A DNA stretch of 64,000 nucleotides from Clostridium sp. HBUAS56010 (GTDB lineage: Bacteria > Bacillota > Clostridia > Lachnospirales > Lachnospiraceae): positions 62,001 through 126,000 of the forward strand of contig NZ_SULJ01000002.1 in assembly GCF_007115105.1 (NCBI RefSeq), given 5' to 3'. A program made the position numbers and the translations under genes. Shown in pieces: positions 30,541-46,982 of this stretch (the first letter of the stretch is position 1; the number at the start of each line of letters is the position of its first letter). The notes beneath the pieces are model-generated. The model ran no database searches, was not told the DNA's origin, and saw only the letters and a list, made by a program, of their open reading frames with translations.

Positions 30541-30969
30541 TTACATTATTAAAATAGTAAAAATCGCTTCTTCAATTACCTTTACACACTCATCTGTATG
30601 TTTTTTAATATCCTCACCCCAGAATCTAATTACGGTCCAGCCTTCGAACAGTAATTTTTTATTGATTGCGTCATCTCTTTCACGATTTCTTGAAATTTTA
30701 CTGATCCAGAATTCACTATTATTGCTTTTTTCTAATTTTAGCTTTAAAACTTCCCAATCCTTTCCATGAAAAAACTCACCATCACAAAAAATTGCTATTT
30801 TATATTTTGTTAGAACAATATCCGGACAGCCTGGTATCTTTTTATAATTTTTACGATAATGGTATCCCTTCTTCCATAAAGCCTTTCTCAGAATCACTTC
30901 TATTTTGGTATCTTTTCCATGGATATTTTTCATATTTTTATGTCTCTGCTCTTTTGTTAAAACATCCAT
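30541..30969 (-). CDS. vsr: Very short patch repair endonuclease (Vsr)
   Basis: 142 residues from ATG 30969, chosen because AGGAGG lies seven bases upstream; an earlier start at 30993 lies before that ribosome site. It starts MDVLTKEQRHKNMKNIHGKD and has CPDIVLTKYKIAIFCDGEFF followed by HGKDWE, and FEGWTVIRFW. Vsr nicks T:G mismatches that arise by deamination of 5-methylcytosine, so it belongs with the two cytosine methyltransferases of this operon. The Asp of PDI matches catalytic Asp51 of E. coli Vsr; where E. coli has His64 this protein has Asp, while the His69 counterpart is kept. It is the last gene of the operon, 10 bases after the R2 stop. Confidence 0.88.
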   Translation of the reverse strand: MDVLTKEQRHKNMKNIHGKDTKIEVILRKALWKKGYHYRKNYKKIPGCPDIVLTKYKIAIFCDGEFFHGKDWEVLKLKLEKSNNSEFWISKISRNRERDDAINKKLLFEGWTVIRFWGEDIKKHTDECVKVIEEAIFTILIM

Positions 30970-30979
30970 AAAACACCTC

Positions 30980-32203
30980 CTATTTTCGTTCAATTAATTT
31001 TGCAAGTTTCATAATTTCATTTTCATCCTGTCGCACATTTATGTTCATCAGTGTTTTGACATCTATAAGGATTCCCTGTATCATTTCAAAGTCGTTTTTA
31101 TTATCTTTCCAGTTACTAATTGCACAACCAGCTTTTATCATTTTCAAATTTTCTTTATATCTACTTTTCAAAGAATCAAATGGCATGACAAAGGCATTAA
31201 ACACCCTCATATTTTCTCCATGAATTTTTTTGATTTTTTCTTCCCCAGCTACGTACTCCCCATATGTGATCTGCTTATTAATTGAGGTTGATCCCGGCAA
31301 ATCCCATGTCTTCCCAGTAACCCCATATTTATAATACTTTGCATCTAAAATATAAATATTATTTTCATACAGCATGATTGTATCTGGCTCTAGTGAAGCA
31401 TTATTATATATTTTCTGTGGTAAAAGCCATGATGTTTTCGGGAAATAATCTGCTTTGTTTTCAATTCCAAATACTTTGTCTATCATTTTCTCCCAGACAT
31501 ATTCAAAACGGTATGTACCATACCTATAAATTTTATCTGCCTCATTGTCACCTTGAAATTTTATAATTGCTATCATATGTTTTAATAAAATTCTATTACG
31601 ATCATTAAATGTATCTGCCAGCCTTGTCTTTATAACTGAGATAAACAGCTTTTTGTTTTTCTTTACTCTTGCTTTTTTAGGCATTGATTTCGTAAACAGC
31701 CATCCAATTTTATCAAAGCTTTCATACACGCACAACTCGTGAATTAAGGTTATTAGCTCATTTTCTTTGATCGTGTTTTTCTTTGTCATAAAGTCCAGAT
31801 AAAATATGTCATTATCTTGCACATATGGATGCTGCGTCTTAATTGTTCTTCCCCAGTTTATCTTTCCTGTTTTCGATACTTCATAGACCATTTCCTGTCC
31901 TTTGAAATAACCCCTGTCATAATAATCTCGGATTATGAACATATAGGATTGAATAGGAAAATCTACTTCATCAAATTTATCCCCTTGGTTAAGAATCTCT
32001 GAATCTTTACGTTCTGTATTAGATCCTAATGTTGAAAATAACAACAAAATATCTTTTCTTAAATCCTTATCATTTTCTGACACATGGTACCCCAGAGGAA
32101 AATTGATACTCAAATCACCATTGTTACACTTTAATCCAACAAAAGTATCCATATCTCTATTTGAATTGATAGAACATTTACTTCTTATATCAATCTCCTG
32201 CAT
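30980..32203 (-). CDS. LlaJI-type restriction endonuclease subunit R2 (McrC-like, PD-(D/E)XK)
   Basis: 407 residues from ATG 32203 (AGGTGG upstream); a start at 32263 would overlap the R1 gene. The nuclease motif is EPDTIMLYENNIYILDAKYY: Asp274, Asp287 and Lys289 form the PD-(D/E)XK triad. The fold and neighbourhood match the LlaJI R2 / McrC group, which cuts DNA when driven by an AAA+ partner. Partner here: the McrB-like R1 encoded immediately upstream. AT-rich like the rest of the island. The cleavage position cannot be inferred. Confidence 0.82.
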   Translation of the reverse strand: MQEIDIRSKCSINSNRDMDTFVGLKCNNGDLSINFPLGYHVSENDKDLRKDILLLFSTLGSNTERKDSEILNQGDKFDEVDFPIQSYMFIIRDYYDRGYFKGQEMVYEVSKTGKINWGRTIKTQHPYVQDNDIFYLDFMTKKNTIKENELITLIHELCVYESFDKIGWLFTKSMPKKARVKKNKKLFISVIKTRLADTFNDRNRILLKHMIAIIKFQGDNEADKIYRYGTYRFEYVWEKMIDKVFGIENKADYFPKTSWLLPQKIYNNASLEPDTIMLYENNIYILDAKYYKYGVTGKTWDLPGSTSINKQITYGEYVAGEEKIKKIHGENMRVFNAFVMPFDSLKSRYKENLKMIKAGCAISNWKDNKNDFEMIQGILIDVKTLMNINVRQDENEIMKLAKLIERK

Positions 32204-32219
32204 CTCGTCACCACCTGGC

Positions 32220-34103
32220 CTAATTATCCAAACCTTCCTTTTTATCCATCTGCATTTTTGCAATCATTTTATTATATATATCTAATCTCAAAACTGTTGC
32301 CAGTTTATCTGTCGTTGAATTTTCATAAGCAGTAATTACATCTTCCAGTGACTTATATTCATCTCTGAATATTGCCACCTTATCCATTTTGAAAGCATCA
32401 TCCCACAGATATTTCAATACTTTTTCTGGAAAACGGGTTACTTCCAATTCTTTCTTTTTTGCAAAATATGCACCAAGTCGCTTATCTTCAGAACTTGCCA
32501 TATCTAGATTTATATCTACAACAAGGTCATTAATAACCGTTGCAAAAGCTCCCCAGCTCAACTCTGTCCCAGCAATTATTGACTTTGAATGATTTGCGGA
32601 ATCAAAATTGTTTTCTATCTGTTTCATATTCCATCTTCGTTGAAACGCGGTATCTAGTGTAAAAACATTCTGATCTGCTGTATTCATTGTAGCAAGAATA
32701 AACATATTTGATGGAATTTTAACAAAATGATTTTCATTACCATACACTTCGTATGCAACATCGTAATTGGCTATTCCGTACTCACTTTCCCCTATTTCTT
32801 CGGTGGAAAACTCCTCTTCGTCATCTTTCCGGTCCAACAATTGAAATATTTCACCAAATATAGCAGGTGAATTTCCCCTGTTAAGCTCCTCTATTATGAG
32901 ATAATAGTAATTTATCGGATCATTTACTGCCTTTTTAAGCATTTTTGTAAATGGTCCAGGCGTAAATACATATTTTAATTTATCCCCATTTTCTGTTTTC
33001 TCAACTCTTGGCAAAATCTGCCCCACAAAATCAGAATATGTGTAATCTGGATGAAAAACTACCCTTTCTATATATCTTTCATCTGCGCAATATTTTGTTT
33101 TAATTATATGGCTCTTTCCAGCTCCTGGAACACCATATAATAAAATATTCTCTGCTCCTGTTTTCCTTTTTGCAGATCCCAAATCACTGCTCATAATTTT
33201 ATCATTTTCTCCTAATATAGAAATCCCATATGTATTTTTGTTTAGGCAACGATAAATGTTTAAGGCTTTTTGTAATTCAGTTGAATATGAATCATTTAAT
33301 CCCGATTCCTTGATAATATCAGGCGCACGAAAATTTTTCTCCAAAATATTCTTTCCATATTTGATTCCGAAAATATGTATGGAAGCCACCCGCATCTTAT
33401 CTTCTGCATTATCATACATATCCTTAAGAATTGTTCCAAGCTGCTGTAATGTATATTTTTTATCAGTAATTTCACTATCATTTATTTCAATCAGCTTCTT
33501 AATATCAACCTTTGTATTTGTTGGAAGTTTATAAAACTTATTATTTAATTTCGATAAATGATAATCACCTTGTGTTTCATCTGTTGCTTTGACTCCGATA
33601 CAATCATATTCCAGGCTTTCCTTATGTTTTAATAAAACCAAGTAATCGCCCGTATGCAAATTCTTTCTAAATTCGACAAACGACTCATCGTCAATAGTTT
33701 TAAGTGATAACTGCACCTGATCCGATTGTGCTTTTCTCCTGCTCCTAACAATACTTGCGTTAACACAGACACTTTCATTTCCATCATAAATATTTTCAAG
33801 ATTATCAGCTCCAAGATAATTGGTATTTTCTTTATACAAATACAGCGGAATCCGTGTGATAAAATATTTTTTTAATTGTTCGTCTCGATTATCGTACTCA
33901 CACTCAAAGTATCCATCAGCCCTCAGATAGGGAAACATATTCATTTGTTCTCCCGAAATTGCGATATGAGTCTGATTGGTTGTACGACCTCCACCTAACG
34001 TATTAGATGTTTCAAGACGCTTTACAATAATGCCATCATATTCATTTTTACTTGACCCACCTACTACATGATGGATTATCTCTAATGCCTCGTTAAATTC
34101 CAT
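32220..34103 (-). CDS. LlaJI-type restriction subunit R1, McrB-like AAA+ NTPase
   Basis: A 627-residue protein. The N-terminal ~200 residues form a target-recognition domain with NQTHIAISGEQ at 43-53, DQVQLSL at 128-134 and LVLLK at 155-159. A linker and the AAA+ domain follow: Walker A GVPGAGKS (324-331), the McrB-specific ELNRGNSPAIFGEIFQLLDR, and sensor NTADQNVFTLDTAFQRRW. McrB-like subunits hydrolyse GTP to translocate on DNA and activate the nuclease R2. ATG overlaps the stop of the methyltransferase gene (TAATG), so the two are translationally coupled. The N-terminal domain is collinear with that of the HNH protein at 36.8-38.0 kb. Confidence 0.9.
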   Translation of the reverse strand: MEFNEALEIIHHVVGGSSKNEYDGIIVKRLETSNTLGGGRTTNQTHIAISGEQMNMFPYLRADGYFECEYDNRDEQLKKYFITRIPLYLYKENTNYLGADNLENIYDGNESVCVNASIVRSRRKAQSDQVQLSLKTIDDESFVEFRKNLHTGDYLVLLKHKESLEYDCIGVKATDETQGDYHLSKLNNKFYKLPTNTKVDIKKLIEINDSEITDKKYTLQQLGTILKDMYDNAEDKMRVASIHIFGIKYGKNILEKNFRAPDIIKESGLNDSYSTELQKALNIYRCLNKNTYGISILGENDKIMSSDLGSAKRKTGAENILLYGVPGAGKSHIIKTKYCADERYIERVVFHPDYTYSDFVGQILPRVEKTENGDKLKYVFTPGPFTKMLKKAVNDPINYYYLIIEELNRGNSPAIFGEIFQLLDRKDDEEEFSTEEIGESEYGIANYDVAYEVYGNENHFVKIPSNMFILATMNTADQNVFTLDTAFQRRWNMKQIENNFDSANHSKSIIAGTELSWGAFATVINDLVVDINLDMASSEDKRLGAYFAKKKELEVTRFPEKVLKYLWDDAFKMDKVAIFRDEYKSLEDVITAYENSTTDKLATVLRLDIYNKMIAKMQMDKKEGLDN

Positions 34104-35536
34104 TATTCATTCCCACCCTTCATATATTTTTTTATAACCTGTGCAATTGCCCTTCCTAATAAAGGAGGAACTGAATTACCTATCTGCATATATGTCTTTG
34201 TATATGCCCCTCTAAAGAAATAATCATCTGGAAACGACTGAACACGTGCTGCTTCTCTTGGAGTCAGCCCCCTTGCTTGATTTGGATGAATATACATATT
34301 GCAATCAAACTTCATATGTGCAGTAATTGTTTTACATATTTTATCATTTTCCAATTTAAAATATTTATCTTTAAAAATATCATTTCTTCTTGCATATGGC
34401 ATAATATCCGCTATTTTAGGATCATCTGACCTGTCTCCTGGCTCCATTCTTCCATATATTTCTATATCTCTGTCATTATTGTAACGTGCCTTGTGGTTAA
34501 TAACTGTATTTATTATGCGTCCTTGATTGATATAAGTAATATACGCATTAGCGTCTGTCTCCATATTTTTCTCTATTTTATATCCACATTCTTGTGAACC
34601 CTCTTCAGTCGAATTTCTGACTCTTGAGGCCTGTAATTCTCTAAGTCCAAATAATGCATCCCCCAAAGTATAATCTGGAATGTTTTTACTTAAAGCAAAT
34701 ATTTCTTTAAAAACGAACTCATTGTCTATTCCAATACGATTTCCAATATAAATCAAACGCTCTCTATTTTGTGGTACTCCGTAATCTTTCGCATTAAGTA
34801 TCCGGCACTCAACTGTATAACCAATGTTTATAAAATCTTCCTTCACCTGTTCCGCAACTGATAGCATCCCCTTTACGTTTTCCATTACAAAGAATTTAGG
34901 ATTCACTTTTTTTACAACTTCCAAATAACTCTTATATAAATGATTTCTTGGATCATCTATTAAACGCTGTCTATTAGCCATACTAAATCCTTGACAAGGT
35001 GGTCCACCGACAACAACATCAACTTTTCTACCAGCTAATAATTCTTTCAGATTATTAACAACATCATTGATATCTCCTAATACAATATGATCTCTTGGTG
35101 TTTCTGGATGATTATGCGCATACGTGTCCACACAGCAATCCTGTATATCATTTGCCAGACTTGTAATAAAACCTTCCTGAGTGAATCCAAGTGATAATCC
35201 TCCTGCTCCACAAAATAAATCTATCATCCTAAGTGCATTTTCAGGCACATTCTTTCTTGCATTCATAATATAAGTATTGCAATACTTGCTTACTGTGCAG
35301 ACACTACAATTCTGACATTCACTATTACATATTGCTGCTATGTTCCTAAATGCATTTTCGAACTCAGAATCAACTAGTAATTCCTTCTTATAGAATTCCG
35401 CTCTGTTATCTAAAAAATATTCACCTGTTTTTTGTGTTACTCGTTGTACACACAAATCTATATTATCATTCTTAGTTAACCCTATTCCAGAAACCGCAAA
35501 TGCTTCAAATTCTGTTTTATCATTTTTATAATTCAT
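34103..35536 (-). CDS. DNA (cytosine-5) methyltransferase M1 of the LlaJI-type system
   Basis: 477 residues from ATG 35536. All C5-methyltransferase motifs are seen in order: I DLFCGAGGLSLGF, IV GGPPCQGFSM with the nucleophile Cys, VI MENVKGM, VIII QNRERLIYIGNR, IX RGLTPREAARVQSFPDD, X QIGNSVPPLLGRAI. The target-recognition region lies between VIII and IX. An unusual N-terminal extension of about 100 residues carries a Cys cluster (CNSECQNCSVCTVSKYC), a possible metal site. A GTG at 35548 is in frame but too close to the GGAG. The start overlaps the stop of M2 (TAATG). It protects host DNA on one strand of an asymmetric site, as in known two-methylase systems. Confidence 0.93.
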   Translation of the reverse strand: MNYKNDKTEFEAFAVSGIGLTKNDNIDLCVQRVTQKTGEYFLDNRAEFYKKELLVDSEFENAFRNIAAICNSECQNCSVCTVSKYCNTYIMNARKNVPENALRMIDLFCGAGGLSLGFTQEGFITSLANDIQDCCVDTYAHNHPETPRDHIVLGDINDVVNNLKELLAGRKVDVVVGGPPCQGFSMANRQRLIDDPRNHLYKSYLEVVKKVNPKFFVMENVKGMLSVAEQVKEDFINIGYTVECRILNAKDYGVPQNRERLIYIGNRIGIDNEFVFKEIFALSKNIPDYTLGDALFGLRELQASRVRNSTEEGSQECGYKIEKNMETDANAYITYINQGRIINTVINHKARYNNDRDIEIYGRMEPGDRSDDPKIADIMPYARRNDIFKDKYFKLENDKICKTITAHMKFDCNMYIHPNQARGLTPREAARVQSFPDDYFFRGAYTKTYMQIGNSVPPLLGRAIAQVIKKYMKGGNE

Positions 35537-36471
35537 TAGTCTACCCACTCTCCAAGTTCCTTTAATGTATTTTTAACAGACTGGGCTACTTCTCTGGAAA
35601 CATTTACTGTTACTGCATTCCCAAACTGTTTATATGCCTGAGAATCAGATACAGGTATTTTAAATGTATCTTCAAACCCCTGTAATCTTGCGCATTCACG
35701 AGGTGTTAATCGTCTCACTCGACCTTTTTGCGTAACATAGTTGTCTTGGCAGGCTCTGTGCATTTTAGCCATAGTAGCACACAAAGGTCTCGCTATTTTT
35801 AAATCAATTTCAGACTTTGCCTTATAACCACCAGTACCATCAGATAATATTGTAGGCAATATCCTGTCCGATAAAAAGTACTTTGGATTTACCTCTTGTT
35901 CCAATAAATCCTGTAAGGTTTTATCAAGCTCCCTTTTCTCTGGAAATTTATAATCTGCACTATCATTCGCAAAACAAACTATGTATGTTCTATTTCTAGT
36001 CTGTGGAACTCCGTAATCCGCCGAGTTCAATATATCACAATATACTTTATATCCCAATTCTTCTTCCAGAATTCTTTGTATTTCTTGATAGGTTCTTCCA
36101 TTATCATGTGTTCTTAGAGATCTTACGTTTTCTAATATAACTGCTTTCGGTTTTTTACCTCTTTCAATTTTATCATTAATAATTTCAGCTATTCTGAAAA
36201 ATAATGTTCCCCTGGTATCTTCAAATCCTTTTTGCTGTCCCATCATACTAAATGGCTGGCATGGAAATCCACCTATCAAGACATCACAATCTGGAATCTT
36301 ATCTAAAGGAATTTCATTTATATCTCCATGTACAATATGTTTACCAAAATTAGTTTCATACGTTTGCACCGCATATTTATCAAAATCATTCGCCCAAATG
36401 ATTTCATATCCCGTTTCAACAAATCCTTTATCAAGGCCCCCGAGTCCACTAAAAAATGATACGACTTTCAC
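35536..36471 (-). CDS. DNA (cytosine-5) methyltransferase M2 of the LlaJI-type system
   Basis: A 311-residue compact C5-methyltransferase. Motif I SFFSGLGGLDKGF, IV GGFPCQPFSMMGQQKG with nucleophile Cys71, VI LENVRSLR, VIII QTRNRTYIV, IX RRLTPRECARLQGF, X YKQFGNAVTVNVSREV. GTG start at 36471 immediately after the stop of the small regulator gene. Two methyltransferases with one restriction enzyme usually mean an asymmetric recognition site, each enzyme treating one strand; LlaJI itself is reported to recognise GACGC. The site here cannot be read from sequence. Confidence 0.94.
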   Translation of the reverse strand: MKVVSFFSGLGGLDKGFVETGYEIIWANDFDKYAVQTYETNFGKHIVHGDINEIPLDKIPDCDVLIGGFPCQPFSMMGQQKGFEDTRGTLFFRIAEIINDKIERGKKPKAVILENVRSLRTHDNGRTYQEIQRILEEELGYKVYCDILNSADYGVPQTRNRTYIVCFANDSADYKFPEKRELDKTLQDLLEQEVNPKYFLSDRILPTILSDGTGGYKAKSEIDLKIARPLCATMAKMHRACQDNYVTQKGRVRRLTPRECARLQGFEDTFKIPVSDSQAYKQFGNAVTVNVSREVAQSVKNTLKELGEWVD

Positions 36472-36669
36472 TTATTTTTCCTCCTTAAGCCTATTATTAC
36501 GTATATATTCTCTAATCCATAATCCAATTTCAACAGAGGCGCTTTTTCCTTCACTATGTAATAAGTCCATGAATTCATCTTTAACCATCGGTTCAATCGC
36601 AATTTCAATTTTCGCTGTTTTTTTTCGACCTGCCGGCCTTCCACAGTTACTATTTTTTTTTCCAGTCAT
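36472..36669 (-). CDS. Ribbon-helix-helix regulator of the restriction-modification operon
   Basis: 65 residues. A basic N-terminus (GRPAGRKKTAK) precedes a predicted strand KIEIAIEP and two helices (DEFMDLLHSEGKSASVEIGL, WIREYIRNN), the outline of an Arc/CopG-type ribbon-helix-helix dimer. ATG 36669 has GGAGGG seven bases upstream. It is the first gene of the operon and abuts the M2 start. It probably times expression of methylation before restriction, as C-proteins do in other systems; an ACACCCT/AGGGTGT palindrome in its promoter is the likely operator. Confidence 0.72.
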   Translation of the reverse strand: MTGKKNSNCGRPAGRKKTAKIEIAIEPMVKDEFMDLLHSEGKSASVEIGLWIREYIRNNRLKEEK

Positions 36670-36687
36670 TTAGTTTCCCTCCATTTA

Positions 36688-36724
36688 ACACCCTTATTAT
36701 ATAGTGTTTTTATCAGGGTGTAAA
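36688..36724 (-). promoter_or_regulatory. Operon promoter with palindromic operator, restriction-modification island
   Basis: On the minus strand TTTACA (36724-36719) is followed after exactly 17 bases by TATAAT (36701-36696). An inverted repeat ACACCCT (36688-36694) and AGGGTGT (36715-36721) embraces the promoter: one half overlaps the -35 box, the other lies just past the -10 box. A protein bound there would block the polymerase. Autoregulation by the ribbon-helix-helix protein is inferred. The HNH gene leaves in the other direction, with its own TATAAT near 36766. Confidence 0.7.
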
Positions 36725-36802
36725 CATATTTTTATTATATTTCTATACATTGCCCAAACCGCTTGATATAATATTCTTACTATTACAAGAAAGGGGTTTT
36801 AT

Positions 36803-37960
36803 ATGTACGCACAAATAATTGACGAACTAAATAATTATCTTAGAAGCTTGAATATAAGTGATAATCCAGTAAATCCAGATGAATTTCAAGCTATATTTGT
36901 AAAGAAATTGTCGAATCAGAATATCATAAAAGACAAACGCAGAATAAACGCAGGAGCTACTGTTTCCACTGTAAACCAGACTCATCTTGATATTACAGGC
37001 CGGCAAAGTATGTTGTTTTTCTTTGAATCTTTAAATGACGAAACTACTTCTATTCAGAACATAGCTATTGACTTATTTGAAACAAATTATAAATACCTTA
37101 ACGATATAGACATTGCACAAAAGTCCTTTGATACAGATGGAAACACCTGCTTTGTCCGTTCTTCTGTTTCTATACCTCCTCATTTGTCTGGATGGAACAA
37201 AAAAATATATAGTTCTGCATACAAAAAATACGGACACACAGGCGATCAGATTCAGATTAACATCCCTGATTCAGATGAGATATTTACCAAATTTCATCAT
37301 TTGGCCTTTCAAGACGACGCTTTAGTTTTATTGAAATATGATTATTTTCATTATCTGGCCATTATAATTCCTTTCGAACTATGTGACATTTTATATTCAA
37401 TCACCAACACTCATGGCTATCAAAATGTAAATGTCACTGTTGATAACCCTTTTTATAATAGAGAAAACGCAAAACAAATCCAGTTCAATGAAATATCACA
37501 GGATCTTATGTATGATGAAGTTGATTTGTCTATGTTACAAAACTCATTAATCAATAGCCCTACTGCTGGAACGGATATTCCTAAACTTATTAAAACACGT
37601 ATCTCACAAGGAGCTTTTCGTAGATTACTACTTTTGGAACGCCATCAATGTCTATTATGCGATGTTACAACCACATCCGTATTACGTGCAAGTCATATAA
37701 AAGAATGGTCTGAATCCTCACGTGAAGAACGAATAGATGCTGCAAATGGATTACTGCTTTGCGCTAATCATGATGCTCTTTTTGACCGGCATCTCATTTC
37801 CTTCAATCCTAAGACAGGGAATATCTGCATATCAGATTCCATTAGCGTCGCGCAAAAAACCTCATTGCGTATTCCTGATAGATTTAATCTTTCTCTTAAT
37901 GACCGAATGAAAAACTATATGAAGATTCACTATCAAAAATACAAGGAAAACGAAAGTTAA
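36803..37960 (+). CDS. HNH endonuclease with an R1-like N-terminal recognition domain
   Basis: 385 residues; AAAGGGG lies six bases before ATG 36803. The C-terminal third is an HNH nuclease of the HNH_2 style: CLLC (283-286), RASHIKEW (His298), and NGLLLCANHDALFDRH (Asn315 to His330). The first ~190 residues are collinear with the N-terminus of the AAA+ subunit R1. IFVKKL matches IIVKRL, NQTHLDITGRQ matches NQTHIAISGEQ, GDQIQINI matches SDQVQLSL, and DALVLLKY matches DYLVLLKH, with spacings that differ by at most five residues. It is divergent from the operon. It is likely a second nuclease that reads the same DNA site or modification. Confidence 0.85.
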   Translation: MYAQIIDELNNYLRSLNISDNPVNPDEFQAIFVKKLSNQNIIKDKRRINAGATVSTVNQTHLDITGRQSMLFFFESLNDETTSIQNIAIDLFETNYKYLNDIDIAQKSFDTDGNTCFVRSSVSIPPHLSGWNKKIYSSAYKKYGHTGDQIQINIPDSDEIFTKFHHLAFQDDALVLLKYDYFHYLAIIIPFELCDILYSITNTHGYQNVNVTVDNPFYNRENAKQIQFNEISQDLMYDEVDLSMLQNSLINSPTAGTDIPKLIKTRISQGAFRRLLLLERHQCLLCDVTTTSVLRASHIKEWSESSREERIDAANGLLLCANHDALFDRHLISFNPKTGNICISDSISVAQKTSLRIPDRFNLSLNDRMKNYMKIHYQKYKENES

Positions 37961-40022: not shown

Positions 40023-40868
40023 TCAGAGAAAAAGTCTGGCAACAGTGGTAAATAAAAAGCACACAACCACTCCGGTTGCAGTTGGTACCAGCCAGGATAC
40101 TGCTGTCCACTTCACACTTTGCGTCTCTTTGCGTATGGTTAGACAGGTGGTGGAACAGGGCCAGTGCATCAGGGAGAATAACAGGGTGCTGACGGCTGTA
40201 ATCCAGGTCCAGCCGTTATTCACCAAAAGATCCTTTAAAACAGATAAATCACTGATCTCCAGGAGTTTTCCTTCTGCCATATACGCCATAATCATAATAG
40301 GAACTACAATTTCATTTGCCGGAAATCCCAGAATGAAAGCCAGCAAAATCACCCCATCCATGCCAATCATTCTGGCAAACGGATCTAAAAAACCAGAACA
40401 TAGGGAAAGCAATGTAGTATCCCCTATTGTTAAATTAGCCATCAGCCAGATAACCATACCTGCAGGAGCGGCAACCACAATCGCCCGCCCAAGAACAAAT
40501 AAGGTCCGGTCGAAAATAGAACGTACAATCACTTTTCCGATCTGCGGTCTTCGATAAGGGGGAAGTTCCAGGGTAAAGGAGGAAGGAATTCCCTTTAATA
40601 TGGTGGCGGATAATAGCTTTGAAATAACCAGTGTCATAATGATTCCAAGAACAATCACCCCGGAAAGGATTGCCGCAGACAAAACAGAGGAAAATAAACC
40701 CGTAGCTCCTCCTACAAAAAACATGGCAATAATTGCAATCATGGTTGGAAACCTGCCATTACATGGCACAAAATTATTGGTAATCATGGCAATCAGCCGT
40801 TCTCGTGGAGAATCAATAATACGGCAGCCCACGATACCAGCCGCATTGCATCCAAATCCCATACACAT
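40023..40868 (-). CDS. feoB: FeoB ferrous iron transporter, C-terminal part (interrupted gene)
   Basis: 281 residues with membrane helices and the Gate motifs MCMGFGCNAAGIVGCRIIDS, TNNFVPCNGRFPT and, further on, FILGFPANEIVVPI. This is exactly the second half of FeoB, beginning at the codon that would follow KQALT in the first half, 4.8 kb away. In the present arrangement it has no ribosome site of its own and follows the recombinase stop by 12 bp, so it is probably not made into a working transporter. Removal of the intervening element would restore a protein of about 715 residues, a normal FeoB length. Confidence 0.93.
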   Translation of the reverse strand: MCMGFGCNAAGIVGCRIIDSPRERLIAMITNNFVPCNGRFPTMIAIIAMFFVGGATGLFSSVLSAAILSGVIVLGIIMTLVISKLLSATILKGIPSSFTLELPPYRRPQIGKVIVRSIFDRTLFVLGRAIVVAAPAGMVIWLMANLTIGDTTLLSLCSGFLDPFARMIGMDGVILLAFILGFPANEIVVPIMIMAYMAEGKLLEISDLSVLKDLLVNNGWTWITAVSTLLFSLMHWPCSTTCLTIRKETQSVKWTAVSWLVPTATGVVVCFLFTTVARLFL

Positions 40869-40869
40869 G
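40864..40869 (+). repeat. CACATG core repeat, left junction of the inserted element (attachment site)
   Basis: The six bases CACATG occur at both ends of the element, here and at 45676-45681, in direct orientation. They lie inside the feoB codons for T-M-C. The element-side flank ACAAGAGAAATCT (40870-40882) is the inverted partner of the flank at the other end. Confidence 0.8.
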
Positions 40870-40880
40870 ACAAGAGAAAT

Positions 40881-42455
40881 CTATGGTTCTGATTGCTGAT
40901 CTATTTCCGGCGGAAGGGTTTTAAAATAAATCCATACTTCCTGATTTTCTCCAATTTCAATCTTATCAATCAAAAGACGCATCAATCCGGCTGTGATCTT
41001 CTCCTGATTTCCAATATCCTCTAACCAGTCAAAAAGAGCATCCCCCTTCCCCTTTTCCTCTGTCAGCGTTTTATCTTCCTGGACTGCCAAAAGCCTGGAT
41101 TCAATGTCCTTTTTTTCTTTCTCAAAAGCTTTCAGCATATGGAAAAAATGTTCCTCGGAAATTCTCTCATTGACTTTATCTTCATAAAGCTGAGTGGTAA
41201 TAAGAAAAAGTTCTCTCTCTCTTTTTCTTAATGCTTTTTCGGTCCGTTCTGAGGAGGAGATTCTTCTATTATCATTTTTTTGTTCCAGAGATAAACGAAT
41301 TTCTTCTTTCTGCCGACTGGTAAACGTCAAAAGAGAGTTTAATTCTCCGGCTATTACCTGATATAAAAAAGAATATCCAATGGAATGACTGGTACACACT
41401 CTCGTCCCATATTGTTTATATCCTCCGCACACCAAGCGGTATGTTTCCATTTTTCCCGGTTTTCCTGTTACAGACATTTTTCTTCCACAATCCCGGCATA
41501 AGGCAATTCCAGAAAACAGATGAAACATGTTCCCTGTCTGGGAACGTTTTCGTGGAACGCTTCTTTTCGTTACCTGGTCGAAGACCTCCTGGGAAATAAT
41601 GGGTTCGTGCATATTTTTTACCACAACCCACTCAGCCCTTGGAATGGAAAGGGTGATGTTGCTTTTAAATGAAAGTTTGGAAGTCTTTCCCTGGACCACA
41701 TGACCTAAATACACTGGATTTCCAAGTATCTTACAGATGGTACCGGACCGCCATTTTCTTTGGTGATCTGGTCTTTCTGCAGTCTGCTCCGGTTGTCTTA
41801 AAAAGCGATAATCCAGAGGAGTAAACACCTCTCTTTCATTTAAATCTGCGGCGATCTGACCGGGAGATTTACCCTCCTGTGCCTTTTTAAATATATCAAT
41901 TACCACAGAAGCTGCCACCGGGTCCACCAGGAGATGGTTCTTATCCATGGGATCTTTCTTATAACCAAAGGGAGCAAAATTTCCAATATAAGCCCCTTCC
42001 CGTATCTTTGTCTGAAATGCACTTCGAATCTTCTTTGAAGTGTCTCTGGCATACATTTCATTCATAATATTTTTAAATGGTGCAATATCGTTATAGGAGT
42101 TGTCGGAATCATATCCATCATTAATGGCAATATAGCGGACTTTTTTAGAAGGAAAATAAAGCTCTGTCAATTGCCCCGTCAATATGTAGTCTCTTCCCAG
42201 ACGGGATAAATCCTTTGTAATAACCAGGTTGATCCGTTTGGCTTCAATATCCCCAATAAGCTGCTGCCAGGCAGGACGCTCAAAATTGGTTCCGCTGAAC
42301 CCATCGTCCACATATTCCCTATAAATGGGGAACCCATTTTCTTTTGCATAGGAACGGAGCATCTTTCTTTGGGTGCTGATGCTGGCACTTTCCCCCGCTC
42401 CTTCGTCGTCTTTTGATAACCTCATATATAAACCAGCCTGATACTCCTTTCTCAT
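40881..42455 (-). CDS. Large serine recombinase (TnpX/TndX type)
   Basis: A 524-residue site-specific recombinase. The N-terminal resolvase domain has LYMRLSKDDEGAGES, whose Ser is the nucleophile, ISTQRKMLRSYAKENGF and ITKDLSRLGRDY with catalytic Arg residues. The recombinase domain follows, then a four-Cys zinc ribbon (CRDCGRKMSV and RLVCGGYKQYGTRVC), a coiled coil (about 380-450) and a C-terminal tail. This layout is that of TnpX/TndX from Clostridial integrative elements. Its ATG overlaps the stop of the 47-aa ORF (ATGA), and its own stop lies 12 bp from the attachment core. It is the likely integrase/excisionase of this element. Confidence 0.93.
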   Translation of the reverse strand: MRKEYQAGLYMRLSKDDEGAGESASISTQRKMLRSYAKENGFPIYREYVDDGFSGTNFERPAWQQLIGDIEAKRINLVITKDLSRLGRDYILTGQLTELYFPSKKVRYIAINDGYDSDNSYNDIAPFKNIMNEMYARDTSKKIRSAFQTKIREGAYIGNFAPFGYKKDPMDKNHLLVDPVAASVVIDIFKKAQEGKSPGQIAADLNEREVFTPLDYRFLRQPEQTAERPDHQRKWRSGTICKILGNPVYLGHVVQGKTSKLSFKSNITLSIPRAEWVVVKNMHEPIISQEVFDQVTKRSVPRKRSQTGNMFHLFSGIALCRDCGRKMSVTGKPGKMETYRLVCGGYKQYGTRVCTSHSIGYSFLYQVIAGELNSLLTFTSRQKEEIRLSLEQKNDNRRISSSERTEKALRKRERELFLITTQLYEDKVNERISEEHFFHMLKAFEKEKKDIESRLLAVQEDKTLTEEKGKGDALFDWLEDIGNQEKITAGLMRLLIDKIEIGENQEVWIYFKTLPPEIDQQSEP

Positions 42456-42595
42456 GGAAAAGGCTCTCCGGTTTCCCTGGACTTTCTCAGCCGTTCAACC
42501 ACCAGCTCCAGAACCGTTTTTTCTCCCACATAGATCCGTTTCACATTTTCGTCCGGATGTGGTCTTTTCCTGGCAGTCTGTTTGATTGTCTTCAT
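42452..42595 (-). CDS. 47-residue ORF coupled to the recombinase
   Basis: ATG 42595 is preceded by AGGAGG. The product starts MKTIKQTARKRPHPDENVKR and ends KSRETGEPFP; it is basic and contains a stretch IYVGEKTVLELVVERLRKS that looks like a strand plus helix. Its stop overlaps the recombinase start (ATGA), so both are translated together. I do not recognise the family. A recombination directionality factor or a cofactor of the recombinase is possible from position and size; that is inference. Confidence 0.65.
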   Translation of the reverse strand: MKTIKQTARKRPHPDENVKRIYVGEKTVLELVVERLRKSRETGEPFP

Positions 42596-42653
42596 TGGAA
42601 ACACCTCCTGAAAAAGCTTATTCCAGAAGGCTCGTACCGTATACGCCTCTCAC

Positions 42654-42700
42654 AAAAAAAGACCTGCCAGAGAACCATGTCTCTGATCAGATCTTTTTTT
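42654..42700 (-). terminator. Terminator after the VanW-family gene
   Basis: A long hairpin whose outer pairs are A7 and T7 (42654-42660 and 42694-42700) encloses a stem with AGAGA/TCTCT and a few mismatches. On the minus strand the T run closes it, just before the 47-aa ORF. Confidence 0.78.
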
Positions 42701-42708
42701 GTATGAAA

Positions 42709-44244
42709 TTAAGGCTGAGGAACAGGGACCTCAGGCACTGTCATGGCTGCACCTGGTCCATCTACAGACGGAGCCGGCTGTGTCTCCACAGGTGCCTGTG
42801 AATGGGTTTCTGGTGTTGTCTCAGGCTCTGTTTCCACTGGCTTATGTGTTGTGTTTCTATGAATAACTGCAGGCTTTCCCTTGTAGGAACTGTTGTGCAG
42901 CGGTTCTTCCTTTATAACGGTACCGTTCTTTTTTAAGACACGATAGCTCTTATATACCGATCCTGTGCTTCCCTGAGTTACAACCTTTTCCGTCCCAAAT
43001 GGAACGGAGGGATTCTCTTCATAAGTTGGGGCTACCGGAGCCAGATCTCTTACTTTTTCCGAACGAATGGTCACAGTCTCACCAGCCTCTAAAAATGGGA
43101 TTCCAACGATGGAGATCTTAAGGGTTCTGCCTTCCAGGGACCCACGGACCACAACGGCACTTCCACTTGTGTTCTTAAATTTTAAATCCGGACCGGCATA
43201 ACCATCAAAGCTGACCATGGCATCTTGTCCCTTTTCTACATAAGAAGGGGCAAAGCTGTGGGAATTACGTTCTGTTGTCTTAAAGCCACTTTCAATAATG
43301 GCATGGTAGAGGGTGGTGGACACCTGACATACACCTCCGCCAGGTTCTTCTATGAGAATTCCATTCCGGTATGCACCTGCAGGCTGGTAACCTTTCTCCT
43401 TTGTCCGGTTGCCGGTGGCATTATTAAAGGAGAATTCCTGTCCTGGTTTTAAAACCATTCCATTGATGGAATCCACAGCAAGCCTGATATTCTGGTTTCT
43501 ATTTTTATTATCAGTGGTTGTAGTGGTAAAGGTTCCGATCACCTTATAGAGTTCTTTTGCCTGTGCTTCGGTCCGTTCTGGAGGTATCTCTTCAAACTCT
43601 GCCTTTATTTCTGACTGGAAATCCTCTGCTTTCACTGCCTTCATCAGTTCTTCAACCAGCTTTTCCTGATTCAGTGTACGCCCATTCTGCCCGTTTGTGT
43701 AATGGTATGCTCCTGCTTCTTTATCAAAGGACTCCAATTCAGCTCCTACCGGGCTTTGATTCCATTTTTTTGCCAGTTCCTCTGCCTTTGCGGCAAATGG
43801 CGCCTGCATGGCTTCATAATCAATGTCATACTGCTGGGATTCTTCGGGGGAGGTTTCCTCCAGCTTTTTTCTAATCGCCTTAATCTGACCGTCCAAAAGA
43901 TTATCCAGTAAGACGAAATCCGAACCATCACTTGCTGCCAGCCCCCATTGATACCGTTCTTCTATGGTCTCTTCTGCTTCTTCTATGGTCAGACCTGTTA
44001 AATCTGTGGTTCCAACTCTGGCAGAAGTCAGTTTCTTCGTCAGATCAACTTCCTTCCCGGTTGGTTCCGGTCCTTTTCCTTCCTGGTAGCTGGCTGATTT
44101 TGCCTGGCGGCCAGCCGATACATTAGAGTATAGCAGCCATGCAGATAACAGGATGGAAAAAGCCAATACACCAATTCCCAGTTTTCTTCTTCTCCTTCTG
44201 GACCGCCGCCTTCTAATCCTGTTTTTATCCATCGTATCAATCAC
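42709..44244 (-). CDS. VanW-family protein with peptidoglycan-binding-like and G5-like regions
   Basis: About 511 residues. A strongly basic start (NRIRRRRSRRRRRK) and one membrane helix (IGVLAFSILLSAWLLY) place it outside the membrane. A PG_binding_4-like region (TDLTGLTIEEAEETI) follows, then the VanW domain (GQEFSFNNATGNRTKEKGY; EEPGGGVCQVSTTLYHAI), then a G5-like strand region (YKSYRVLKKNGTVIKEEPL) and a Pro/Thr-rich tail. It starts at GTG 44244 or ATG 44232, overlapping the CcdA-TlpA gene; the ribosome site fits neither perfectly. VanW proteins are cell-envelope proteins of unclear activity. It is unusual cargo for a small integrative element. Confidence 0.88.
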   Translation of the reverse strand: MIDTMDKNRIRRRRSRRRRRKLGIGVLAFSILLSAWLLYSNVSAGRQAKSASYQEGKGPEPTGKEVDLTKKLTSARVGTTDLTGLTIEEAEETIEERYQWGLAASDGSDFVLLDNLLDGQIKAIRKKLEETSPEESQQYDIDYEAMQAPFAAKAEELAKKWNQSPVGAELESFDKEAGAYHYTNGQNGRTLNQEKLVEELMKAVKAEDFQSEIKAEFEEIPPERTEAQAKELYKVIGTFTTTTTDNKNRNQNIRLAVDSINGMVLKPGQEFSFNNATGNRTKEKGYQPAGAYRNGILIEEPGGGVCQVSTTLYHAIIESGFKTTERNSHSFAPSYVEKGQDAMVSFDGYAGPDLKFKNTSGSAVVVRGSLEGRTLKISIVGIPFLEAGETVTIRSEKVRDLAPVAPTYEENPSVPFGTEKVVTQGSTGSVYKSYRVLKKNGTVIKEEPLHNSSYKGKPAVIHRNTTHKPVETEPETTPETHSQAPVETQPAPSVDGPGAAMTVPEVPVPQP

Positions 44245-45529
44245 GCTCCCCTTTTAATGTTTGTTCTATAATGCTGTGCATCATGTCTTTTGTCAACTGT
44301 CCGCTTGCATAACCGAACACATTGCCTTCCCGGTCTATCATATAGGTAGTTGGAAAAGAGTAGATGCCGTAAGCTTCAAATAATTCTGCGTTCGTATCCA
44401 TTAAAACCGGATAAGCATACCCATTCTCTTTAAGAAAATCCTTAATTCCCTGTTCGTCTTTTTCATCTCCATAGTCAGGAGCTGCCACTCCCAGAATGAT
44501 TACCCCGTTTTCTCCGTCTGTCTCCTGTGTCTCATATAGTTCCTGAATGTCCGGCATCTCTGCACGGCATGGAGGGCACCAGGTAGCCCAGAAGTTTAAA
44601 AAGATTGTTTTTCCTTTATAGTCAGACATAGAATGGGTATTCCCAAACTGATCTTTTAATGTAAAATCAATGGCAGGAAGGGGTTCCTTTTCCGTGGTTT
44701 CCTCTTGGGACTCTGTTTCCCTTTGTGTCTCTGTTTCTTCCCGGGTTATGTTTTCTGTCTCTTTCTCCCCGGCTTCCTCTCTGGCCTGAGGCGAAGAAGG
44801 AAGAACTGATAAATACCCGCTGATTCCATTCATCTTTCCTGTAAACATCAAGGCACCTATTACAATCAAAAGAGCGCCTCCGGCTTTCACCGCATTTTTT
44901 GTTACATTCCTATGAGCTTTAAAAAATGCCAGCACCGTTGTGGTGAAAAATCCAACAAACAGAAACGGAAGAACAAAGCCAAGTGTATACACTCCAATCA
45001 AAAGAAATCCGAGTGTTCCTGATGAGGCGGAGGTTGCCATGAGCAGTACACTTGCAAGTGCCGGACCAACGCAGGGTGTCCATGCAAAGCTGAATGTAAA
45101 TCCCATGAAAAGTGCAGTCAGCGGGGACATGGCAAGCTTGTCAAAGGAAAAAGGAAGTCTTCTGTCCCGTTCAATCAAAGTTGATGTTCCTAAAAGTCCC
45201 AGTTGATACAAGCCAAACAAGAATATCACCACACCGCCTGCTCTGGCAAATAAAAGCTGATGGGATCTGAAAAAGCTTCCAAGTGCCGTAACTCCAAGCC
45301 CCAGCAAAAAGAAAGTAAAGCTGATTCCAAGGACAAAACAAATGGTGTGGATAATGACCTTTCTGCGGTTATAGATGATCTGTCCATCTTCTCCTGCAAC
45401 ACCGGTCCCTCCGGATAAATATCCAATATAAAGAGGGATCAGCGGAAGAACACAAGGGGAAAAGAAACTTACAATCCCCTGCAAAAACACCGTTAAAACA
45501 GGAATACTTATATCTAGGGAAAAACCCAC
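44237..45529 (-). CDS. CcdA-TlpA fusion: membrane disulfide-electron carrier with thioredoxin domain
   Basis: 430 residues, GTG start at 45529 with GGAGG seven bases upstream. Residues 1-235 form six helices of a CcdA/DsbD-type channel with the paired redox Cys26 (SFFSPCVLPL) and Cys153 (FAWTPCVGPA). A Glu/Thr-rich linker (about 248-283) leads to a TlpA/ResA-type thioredoxin domain with CPPC at 318-321 (NFWATWCPPCRAEMP). It carries electrons from cytoplasmic thioredoxin to the outer face and reduces disulfides there. Fusion of both halves in one chain is known in Firmicutes. It lies first in the element and has its own strong promoter. Confidence 0.92.
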   Translation of the reverse strand: MGFSLDISIPVLTVFLQGIVSFFSPCVLPLIPLYIGYLSGGTGVAGEDGQIIYNRRKVIIHTICFVLGISFTFFLLGLGVTALGSFFRSHQLLFARAGGVVIFLFGLYQLGLLGTSTLIERDRRLPFSFDKLAMSPLTALFMGFTFSFAWTPCVGPALASVLLMATSASSGTLGFLLIGVYTLGFVLPFLFVGFFTTTVLAFFKAHRNVTKNAVKAGGALLIVIGALMFTGKMNGISGYLSVLPSSPQAREEAGEKETENITREETETQRETESQEETTEKEPLPAIDFTLKDQFGNTHSMSDYKGKTIFLNFWATWCPPCRAEMPDIQELYETQETDGENGVIILGVAAPDYGDEKDEQGIKDFLKENGYAYPVLMDTNAELFEAYGIYSFPTTYMIDREGNVFGYASGQLTKDMMHSIIEQTLKGERD

Positions 45530-45598
45530 TCCTATACCTCCTTTTTGGTTTTAAATACTGAAAAATGTATCCTTTTTCCGAAACTTCTGTACTAATTT

Positions 45599-45649
45599 TA
45601 GTTACAGTTTTATTGGTGTAACTATACCATTTTAGACAAAAAGTGTCAA
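45599..45649 (-). promoter_or_regulatory. Promoter and palindromic operator of the ccdA-tlpA/vanW unit
   Basis: Minus strand: TTGACA (45649-45644), 17-base spacer, TATAGT (45626-45621). A perfect inverted repeat TAGTTACA (45599-45606) and TGTAACTA (45617-45624) with a ten-base spacer covers the -10 box and start point. A further TGTA half-site lies beyond, near 45590. TACA/TGTA pairs are typical of BlaI/CopY-type repressors, but no such gene is in the element, so the regulator would be encoded elsewhere. Confidence 0.7.
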
Positions 45650-45674
45650 GTATGAAAAGCATAAATTTCTTCTG

Positions 45675-46982
45675 TCACATGGTCAGTGCCTGCTTCCCGC
45701 AGGCAGAGCACTTCTTAAAGCAGCGATCCAGGTTAAATGCTACTCTGGGAAGGTATCCAAAGTCTTCCAAAAGAGTAAACATTGGGAAAAAGATTGCCAT
45801 AGGAGGAAGCATTACCGATACTACCCAGGCAAGAACCCGGTAGACCCCATGGATGAGAAGATTGGACAGAATTGAGGGCACTCCTGCCCAGTCTGCAGCA
45901 CTGCTCAGCCAGTCTTCTACGGAAAATAATGCCTTGCTAAGCAGTTGGGAGGGATAATTGGCACCAGTTATGGTCAGCCAGAAAATTCCAAGAAGAACCA
46001 GAAACATAATGGGAAAGCCAGTGGATTTACTGGTAAAAAGCCAATCCAGTTTCCGGTCTTTCCGGTTATACGTCTGATTTTCATAAATCACAACATCTTT
46101 GCATAAATATTCTGCTTTTTTTATAAATACATTTGCCATATCATCGCTGACTCTCTCCTGGTCATAGCCTTCTTCCTTCCACTGGCTGCGGATCTCTTCC
46201 AGACACGCCATAACTTCCTGGGATTCTGCAACCGGCGCTACATAGGTTTTTACTGCTGTCATCAGATTTTCATTGGAGTCCAACAGTCTGGCACAGAGCC
46301 ATCTGGTATTAATTTTATCAGAAGACAGGGGTTCTGCAATGGGAATCAGTTTTTCAATGGCTTTTTCAATATATTCCGGATAATTGATCAGTCTGGGACG
46401 AAAGGCTTTTTCCTCTTTCTCTTCCAGACAGCGGGACAGACTGGTATAAATCTGATCCAGCCCTTTTTTGCTTCTTGCAGCCGTACCTGCCACCGGAACT
46501 CCAAGGCGCTGTTCCAACAGATCCAGACGAACTGTGATCTGCTTCTTTTCTGCCTCATCCATCAGATTGACGCATACTACCGAATAAGGAGAGGCCTCCA
46601 ATACCTGCAAAACCAGATTCAGATTCCGTTCCAGGCAGGTGGCATCACAGACTACCACCACTGCATCTGGATTTTCAAAACAGATAAAATCTCTGGCAAC
46701 CTCTTCTTCTGTGGAATGAGCCATAAGGGAATAGCAGCCCGGAATGTCAACCATTACATATCCCTGACCGCCGTCGCTGCAGTAGCCCTGGGCATTGGCA
46801 ACCGTCTTTCCCGGCCAGTTTCCCGTGTGCTGGTTCATGCCTGTGAGCTGGTTAAACACGGTACTCTTTCCCACATTGGGATTTCCTGCCAGAGCAATGA
46901 CTTTATCCGTTTCACTTCGCTTTTTAATTTCCAGCCCCATATCTACAGATTTAATTCCAACCGAATCTCTGCTTAATCCCAT
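45675..46982 (-). CDS. feoB: FeoB ferrous iron transporter, N-terminal part (interrupted gene)
   Basis: 435 residues: the G-protein domain with GNPNVGKS (33-40), DIPG (79-82) and NLMD (139-142), the GDI-like helical region, and the first membrane helices ending FGYLPRVAFNLDRCFKKCSA. It stops at TGA 45677-45675, created where the element begins. It starts 10 bases inside the end of feoA. The soluble G domain is intact, but the transport pore (second half at 40.0-40.9 kb) is missing, so the transporter should be inactive until the element excises. In other bacteria feoAB is controlled by Fur or DtxR-like proteins; a DtxR-family gene is divergent here. Confidence 0.94.
   Translation of the reverse strand: MGLSRDSVGIKSVDMGLEIKKRSETDKVIALAGNPNVGKSTVFNQLTGMNQHTGNWPGKTVANAQGYCSDGGQGYVMVDIPGCYSLMAHSTEEEVARDFICFENPDAVVVVCDATCLERNLNLVLQVLEASPYSVVCVNLMDEAEKKQITVRLDLLEQRLGVPVAGTAARSKKGLDQIYTSLSRCLEEKEEKAFRPRLINYPEYIEKAIEKLIPIAEPLSSDKINTRWLCARLLDSNENLMTAVKTYVAPVAESQEVMACLEEIRSQWKEEGYDQERVSDDMANVFIKKAEYLCKDVVIYENQTYNRKDRKLDWLFTSKSTGFPIMFLVLLGIFWLTITGANYPSQLLSKALFSVEDWLSSAADWAGVPSILSNLLIHGVYRVLAWVVSVMLPPMAIFFPMFTLLEDFGYLPRVAFNLDRCFKKCSACGKQALTM
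45676..45681 (+). repeat. CACATG core repeat, right junction of the inserted element (attachment site)
   Basis: Direct copy of the core at 40864-40869. The element-side flank AAATTTCTTCTGT (45663-45675) matches, in inverted orientation, the flank at the other end. The outer side continues into feoB codons for KQALT. Confidence 0.8.

Follow-up and report, generated by a model that had tools for sequence, protein, structure and literature searches.

A reader domain shared by the AAA+ subunit of a LlaJI-type restriction system and a divergent HNH nuclease suggests a second effector for one site

Restriction-modification (R-M) systems are usually described as one set of methyltransferases with one nuclease. 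What, then, is a gene for an HNH nuclease doing back to back with an R-M operon that has a nuclease subunit of its own? The question arises in a 64,000-nucleotide stretch of Clostridium sp. HBUAS56010 (NZ_SULJ01000002.1, positions 62,001-126,000), the whole of which we call the window. On its minus strand lies an operon of the LlaJI type, comprising a 65-amino-acid open reading frame (ORF), two methyltransferases (M1 and M2), a McrB-like AAA+ subunit (R1), a nuclease subunit (R2) and a Vsr endonuclease; the HNH gene (36803..37960, plus strand) runs divergently from it and encodes 385 amino acids. The HNH protein and R1 have homologous N-terminal domains, such pairing recurs with two other families of reader domain, and the HNH gene accompanies the same two methyltransferases at a locus where R1 and R2 are absent. 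We consider it rather probable that this R-M system has in the HNH protein an optional second effector of restriction, directed at the site methylated by M1 and M2.

The preliminary description of this DNA had noticed four blocks of sequence common to R1 and the HNH protein, and all four stand at the residues it gave: IIVKRL (25-30) in R1 and IFVKKL (31-36) in the HNH protein, NQTHIAISGEQ (43-53) and NQTHLDITGRQ (58-68), SDQVQLSL (127-134) and GDQIQINI (147-154), and DYLVLLKH (153-160) and DALVLLKY (172-179). The spacings between them had each been put one residue too high (85/90 and 27/26); counted from start to start they are 84/89 and 26/25. BLASTP aligns the two proteins with 45 of 168 residues identical (expectation value, E, 1e-6 for this single comparison), and their Smith-Waterman score of 105 compares with a shuffled mean of 34.6 (standard deviation 5.9, maximum 72 in 2000 shuffles; z 12). 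Neither N-domain is matched in Pfam. The proposal that they are one domain is confirmed by comparison of profiles: hhalign joins six HNH N-domains (set A3) to nine R1 N-domains (set A6, from which locus L075, discussed below, was excluded) at 97.2%, with E 4.1e-11 over 130 columns and 30% identity. A profile of the R1 N-domain was also run against 299 whole genomes of the family (G numbers below). At E of 0.001 or better it found the R1 proteins of G000, G205, G268 and G280 and went on to reach the HNH proteins of G280 (8.8e-6), G000 (8.8e-5) and G268 (9e-4); one extra weak match (E 0.0068) we take as chance. In this blind search, therefore, the nearest relative of the R1 reader is the HNH protein next door.

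What would such a domain read? The predicted structure of the R1 N-domain (residues 1-212; 33468..34103, minus strand) models as a B3 DNA-binding fold when aligned with VIA-align. Foldseek alone was uninformative on this model, and 6c5d (LlaJI.R1) was not among the matches listed for it, which excludes nothing. A prediction of the full HNH protein from five sequences has low confidence (pLDDT 44); its best PDB match is the N-domain of H. pylori LlaJI.R1 (6C5D), on which we do not lean. Sequence profiles of the N-domains gave no B3 match against the PDB, one of them listing six sequences at E 0.098-0.26 that we take as chance and the other matching nothing at all. The B3 domain of LlaJI binds DNA site-specifically (PMC7680126) and is described, in the available part of a further report, as a reader of unmodified DNA (PMC12707154). 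The preliminary description had stated that N-domains of McrB-type subunits read either the target or its modification. Given the B3 model of the R1 N-domain and this account of the LlaJI domain, reading of the modification is unlikely here.

The remainder of the HNH protein is a nuclease by its sequence features. Behind the putative reader (residues 1-215; 36803..37447, plus strand) comes an HNH_2 domain (residues 283-335; 37649..37807, plus strand; PF13391, E 1.4e-12) in which H298, N315 and H323, assigned as the HNH triad by inspection, are invariant in five aligned sequences of the window's reader class, class A. Residues 256-352 match the HNH endonuclease 6yex (E 4.2e-13).

The link between the HNH gene and the methyltransferases is seen in class A (L numbers denote the loci compared). 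PF09563 matched in only 3 of 398 genomes of the phylum, this one included, and relatives of R2 were instead taken from an alignment of the window's own R2 (the best 80 of 163 relatives); duplicates (L055, L056, L058, L060 and L061) were removed before counting. The HNH gene is optional, being present in five of nine class-A loci with R1 and R2, namely the window and L070 to L073. In all five it lies 331-337 bases from M1 (335-337 in L070 to L073), and in the latter four M1 is 85-89% and M2 77-80% identical to that of the window. At a sixth locus, L057 (genome G013), the HNH gene, M1 (80%), M2 (68%) and Vsr are present, and R1 and R2 are absent from the 16 kilobases (kb) examined; elsewhere in G013 a search with whole R1 gave only a match to the AAA part on another contig (residues 318-504, 40%). 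The N-domain of the L057 HNH protein picks the class-A reader group at 76.7% (E 2.1e-5). An M1/M2 pair thus adjoins all six distinct class-A HNH genes, M1 being 80-89% and M2 68-80% identical to the window's across the other five. Between M1 and the HNH gene, L057 also has a 376-amino-acid protein (L057:5514-6644) in which only a C-terminal topoisomerase-type zinc ribbon was recognised and for which PADLOC gave no match; it may be a further nuclease directed at the M1/M2 site.

Matches to the HNH protein itself occur in 23 of the 299 family genomes, 4 of them full-length, and in all 4 the M1/M2 pair stands beside the HNH gene. Of the 19 partial matches, 18 fall within residues 211-382, and the remaining one, in G271, covers 157-252 with an internal stop. 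Among 64 plasmid and 2 phage records with matches, none spans more than 80% of the protein; the 15 plasmid and 2 phage matches listed begin at residue 184 or later, and the three plasmid HNH_2 neighbourhoods examined list no methyltransferase. Viral contigs hold 29 R2 loci, none with a class A-E HNH companion, and no relative of the window HNH protein or of the R1 N-domain. Two further relatives deserve mention. L075 had been placed in class A by its HTH (helix-turn-helix) domain and was dropped, the N-domain of its R1 (L075:2645-4546) being unrelated; there the AAA/HTH part is related and M1 and M2 are 80 and 75% identical, so that the locus looks like a reader exchanged in nature while the methyltransferase pair apparently stayed constant. 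L060 (the same as L096) is a decayed class-A operon with R1 in pieces and a short M1; the stretch examined there yielded no ORF for R2 or for an HNH protein.

Is the sharing of a reader peculiar to class A? The pairing recurs beyond this genome and with readers unrelated to class A. In class B, found in two genomes (L058, the same as L094, and L059), R1 and its HNH companion alike contain the Pfam domain MTaX1 (PF20296, methylase-associated X1), which was not detected on the window proteins; discrimination of modified DNA has been proposed for MTaX1 (PMC10853773, as far as its accessible text goes). In class C (L080 and L097) the reader is an ORF of its own, about 206 amino acids long and placed ahead of the AAA gene; the gene behind R2 encodes an HNH protein whose N-terminal part is related to this reader. 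When groups of HNH N-domains were compared with groups of readers by hhalign, the matched pairings reached 97.3% (A-A, with the misfit L075 still in the class-A reader group), 99.3% (B-B) and 98.1% (C-C), and mismatched pairings at most 0.64%. Taken individually against ten reader groups, nine companions choose their own group at 91.6-98.3% (94.1-97.2% for the five class-A R1+R2 loci, 98% for L094 and L059, 92% for L080 and 95% for L097), the next-best group reaching at most 1.07%; BLASTP of each of these nine to its own reader gives E from 6e-5 to 3e-12, and hhalign of single sequences is weaker, from 22% (L080) to 95.9% (L059). In whole-genome searches the profile of class-C HNH N-domains found the reader ORF of G036 (6.3e-7) and that of class B the R1 N-domain of G024 (4.8e-13); the R1 of G056 was not among the matches listed. 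In L080, L097, L062, L079 and L083 the HNH gene stands directly behind R2 with gaps of -32 to +51 bases (an overlap of 4 bases in L097, 51 bases of separation in L080), which argues for joint expression.

Readers of class D and class 19 are also common to AAA+ systems and HNH nucleases, here across different loci. In L062 and L131 an ORF of its own, ahead of the AAA gene, encodes the class-D reader, which is matched by the N-domains of the HNH proteins of L063 (L063:7367-8686, which also has a sub-threshold Hom_end match) and L148 (L148:4509-5735) at 97.3 and 97.8%; these two carry the class-D group match of 99.1%, which accordingly does not represent own-reader pairs. In L165 an HNH protein (L165:6582-7844) is fused to a class-19 R1 reader (E 1.4e-26), and no LlaJI gene was detected in the 15 kb around it. 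Some LlaJI-type operons differ in their methyltransferases: L062, L063, L104, L131 and L148 have a C5 methyltransferase with an N6/N4-type methylase (checked with Pfam on L063, by similarity on the others) and not two C5 enzymes. L104 (L104:11307-12503) and relatives encode a protein of about 400 amino acids that has a weak CGNR-type zinc finger at its C-terminus and whose gene is often convergent with R2; it occurs in 39 of 88 loci and in all 29 viral-contig R2 loci.

Across 120 distinct loci with R1 and R2, 14 have an HNH companion of more than 200 amino acids; this limit leaves out five HNH ORFs of 136-159 amino acids lying 8-9 kb from R2 (L116, L122, L123, L124 and L195), and the 120 include viral-contig loci, partial contigs and possible near-duplicates, with flanks often cut short. 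Nine of the 14 match their own reader (the window, L059, L070 to L073, L080, L094 and L097), and L062 was counted neither as a match nor as a mismatch. Random placing over the 120 loci would give 0.74 matches on average and gave at most 6 in 200,000 draws. Counted by lineage, three of six match, a result reached in 165 of 200,000 draws.

A number of observations weigh against a reader-matched companion as the rule. The co-occurrence that the preliminary description suggested surveying is indeed found in several LlaJI-type operons, but only in those 14 of 120 loci, and in four of them the readers do not match: L063 and L148, whose own R1s belong to another reader class (class 15), and L079 and L083, which form class E, were all kept as failures. 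L062, tried as an own-reader match, reached only 6% with the class-D group and 0.6% with its own reader (BLASTP E 0.001), too little to count as one. No reader class is assigned to 33 of the 120 loci, which together with relatedness and partial contigs limits the pairing numbers. At the level of the domain, the R1 N-domain profile missed the fourth HNH relative, that of G013, in the 299 genomes, and when 75 R1 N-domains were run with phmmer through the ORFs of 93 loci, the window R1 was not joined to its own HNH protein at E 0.01, the class-A HNH proteins being reached only by the R1s of relatives.

The system itself is of a known kind. The Lactococcus plasmid system LlaJI (PMC1459862) likewise has two C5 methyltransferases, a McrB-like R1 with an N-terminal B3 reader, and an RE_LlaJI R2; it is described as four genes, and an HNH protein, Vsr or a 65-amino-acid ORF goes without mention in the abstract and Discussion of that paper. 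All the sequence features of LlaJI are found in the window: two PF00145 enzymes, AAA_5/REase_II, PF09563 and, as a model, B3 on R1. For the HNH protein the closest catalytic match is 6YEX, which we take to be VcaM4I, a type IV enzyme of EVE-HNH build. Both place a reader before a C-terminal HNH domain, but they align only over the HNH part, and the window protein differs in its R1-like reader and in the two methyltransferases adjacent to it. No EVE domain was matched on it by Pfam (E up to 1), and nothing aligned to the N-terminal part of 6yex; EVE-HNH type IV enzymes are not known to have a cognate methyltransferase adjacent, whereas M1 and M2 stand beside each of the six distinct class-A HNH genes. 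The phosphorothioate (PT)-dependent SBD-HNH family NF045808 scores 26.9 bits, below its cut-off of 180, over residues 224-351 only. Among B3 restriction enzymes, EcoRII and UbaLAI have a PD-(D/E)XK catalytic domain. That of BfiI is a phospholipase D (PLD) domain (PMC4081073, in the part accessible). The window protein has an HNH domain instead, HNH_2 being its sole Pfam match, with no PD-(D/E)XK or PLD domain. Pectobacterium offers a McrBC-like enzyme that cuts unmethylated DNA (PcaI) together with an HNH nuclease (PcaII) in one genome, but PcaII acts on methylated DNA, lacks a nearby methyltransferase gene and has a TRF1-like N-terminus, and the available text reports no common reader (PMC8989522). 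The literature search, to which the subscription literature was mostly closed, yielded no HNH companion of LlaJI systems, no reader shared by AAA+ and HNH proteins, and nothing on a B3 domain with HNH and EcoRII; the main text of a McrBC census, so far as available, has no occurrence of LlaJI and does not list HNH (PMC11090510). What is new is the LlaJI-type system with a reader-matched HNH arm, the operon type itself being known.

The arrangement of the window locus bears on how the two arms might be controlled. Pfam confirms the earlier identification of the operon, with M1 (35536..36471; PF00145, E 3.5e-87) and M2 (34103..35548; PF00145, E 2.6e-71) as C5 cytosine methyltransferases, the 627-amino-acid R1 (32220..34103; AAA_5 at residues 319-490, E 9.1e-12), R2 as an RE_LlaJI nuclease (30980..32263; PF09563, E 1.3e-36, 127.1 bits against a cut-off of 23.6) and Vsr as a mismatch endonuclease (30541..30993; PF03852, E 1.9e-30), all on the minus strand. 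R1 further contains HTH_73 at residues 218-289 (33237..33452, minus strand; PF24718, E 2.1e-22) and matches PADLOC REase_II over residues 262-615 (E 2.2e-95); alignment to relatives suggests that the true start of R2 probably lies about 20 codons downstream. The conserved 65-amino-acid ORF with which the operon opens (36472..36669, minus strand), ribbon-helix-helix-like by eye and matched in neither Pfam nor NCBIfam, sits between the divergent promoters and M1 and is a candidate regulator of both arms. The promoter-like sites are TATACA-17-TATAAT for the HNH gene (36744..36772, plus strand; 10 of 12 consensus matches) and TTTACA-17-TATAAT for the operon (36696..36724, minus strand; 11 of 12). 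In class A they stand back to back with their -35 boxes about 20 bases apart; the TATAAT of the former and the latter site are each conserved in five of six aligned loci, the exception both times being L057. The promoter scan yielded 13 sites against 8.9 expected by chance. G+C is 0.33-0.34 at 30-40 kb of the window and 0.41-0.45 directly on either side (26-30 and 40-46 kb), though stretches further left also drop to 0.35-0.37. To the right, a feoB-like sequence is split within 40023-46982 (FeoB_N/Cyto at 45675-46982, Gate/FeoB_C at 40023-40868) and the interval between the pieces encodes a large serine recombinase (40881-42455) together with VanW-like and DsbD/thioredoxin proteins, as though the gene had been interrupted by a recombinase element.

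Could the HNH protein serve some other end? It might be an accessory nuclease or subunit of R1-R2 that, for example, nicks the site and thereby loads or assists the AAA+ complex. The five loci in which its gene follows R2 with an overlap or at most 51 bases fit this idea, as does the report that LlaJI R1 and R2 neither cleaved nor nicked DNA in vitro, for which a missing factor is possible according to its authors (PMC1459862, in the text available). We nevertheless think it unlikely: the class-A HNH gene persists with M1 and M2 in L057, which speaks against dependence on R1-R2, and a companion is present in a small minority of R1+R2 loci, albeit ones with flanks often cut short. Still less probable is a modification-dependent (type IV) nuclease that acts on a methylated site or another modification and is silenced by M1/M2-dependent repression in the manner of PcaI/PcaII. 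The catalytic half of the protein has 6yex as its closest match and is similar to PT-dependent HNH enzymes, the divergent promoters would permit expression controlled by methylation, and the three plasmid HNH_2 relatives have no methyltransferase listed nearby; PcaII, moreover, coexists under repression with an antagonistic McrBC-like R-M system (PMC8989522, in part). Against this stand the homology of the reader to the B3-type reader of R1, together with the description of LlaJI B3 as reading unmodified DNA (PMC12707154, in part), and the constant presence of methyltransferases beside the class-A genes, whereas PcaII has neither such a neighbour nor such an N-terminus.

Equally improbable, in our judgement, is that defence-island shuffling brought in the HNH gene as a neighbour with a separate target, the sharing of the domain being genuine all the same. 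L063, L148, L079 and L083 may be cases of chance neighbourhood, and the uncounted L062 and the class-19 HNH protein of L165, with no LlaJI gene detected in the 15 kb examined, are also what shuffling would leave. For classes A to C, given the matched readers, it is unlikely; nine matches of 14 where 0.74 are expected, and the tight spacing to M1 conserved through the five class-A R1+R2 loci, speak against it. A protein that mainly regulates the system, or joins Vsr in repair at methylated sites, and does not restrict would account for the Vsr gene in the operon and for the divergent promoters between the genes, but the five aligned class-A sequences retain the HNH core residues, and the class-B loci L059 and L094 have an HNH gene with no Vsr detected in the stretch examined; we regard this as very improbable.

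A second restriction enzyme for the M1/M2 site is the simplest reading, because the HNH gene stays with the methyltransferase pair in the absence of R1 and R2 and its product carries an R1-type reader. We propose that a one-chain B3-HNH restriction nuclease would form a second effector arm beside the LlaJI-type R1-R2. Its B3-like N-terminal domain would read the same short, unmethylated and probably asymmetric site as R1, and methylation of the host site by M1 and M2 would keep both readers off it. When unmodified DNA invades, R1 would recruit the translocating AAA+/PD-(D/E)XK machine formed with R2, and the HNH protein would bind the same site and nick or cut directly. Transcription would be set by the back-to-back promoters, perhaps under the control of the small operon-head protein.

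We give an even chance to a broader proposal, in which the reader of LlaJI-type systems is a modular slot and an HNH nuclease with the same reader has been recruited for at least three unrelated readers (B3-like, MTaX1 and the reader of about 206 amino acids), resulting in a dual-effector arrangement of a translocating machine and a direct cutter at one methyltransferase-defined site. If true, a pair of nucleases that share a reader would raise the question of why two effectors per site pay off; one possible gain would be against inhibitors of the AAA+ machine. The HNH proteins would be small one-chain nucleases whose site could be deduced from the AAA+ system beside them, and they would be candidates for the activity missing in vitro from LlaJI-type systems. 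They would also allow a direct test of whether one reader brings both a motor-driven nuclease and a direct one to a single sequence.

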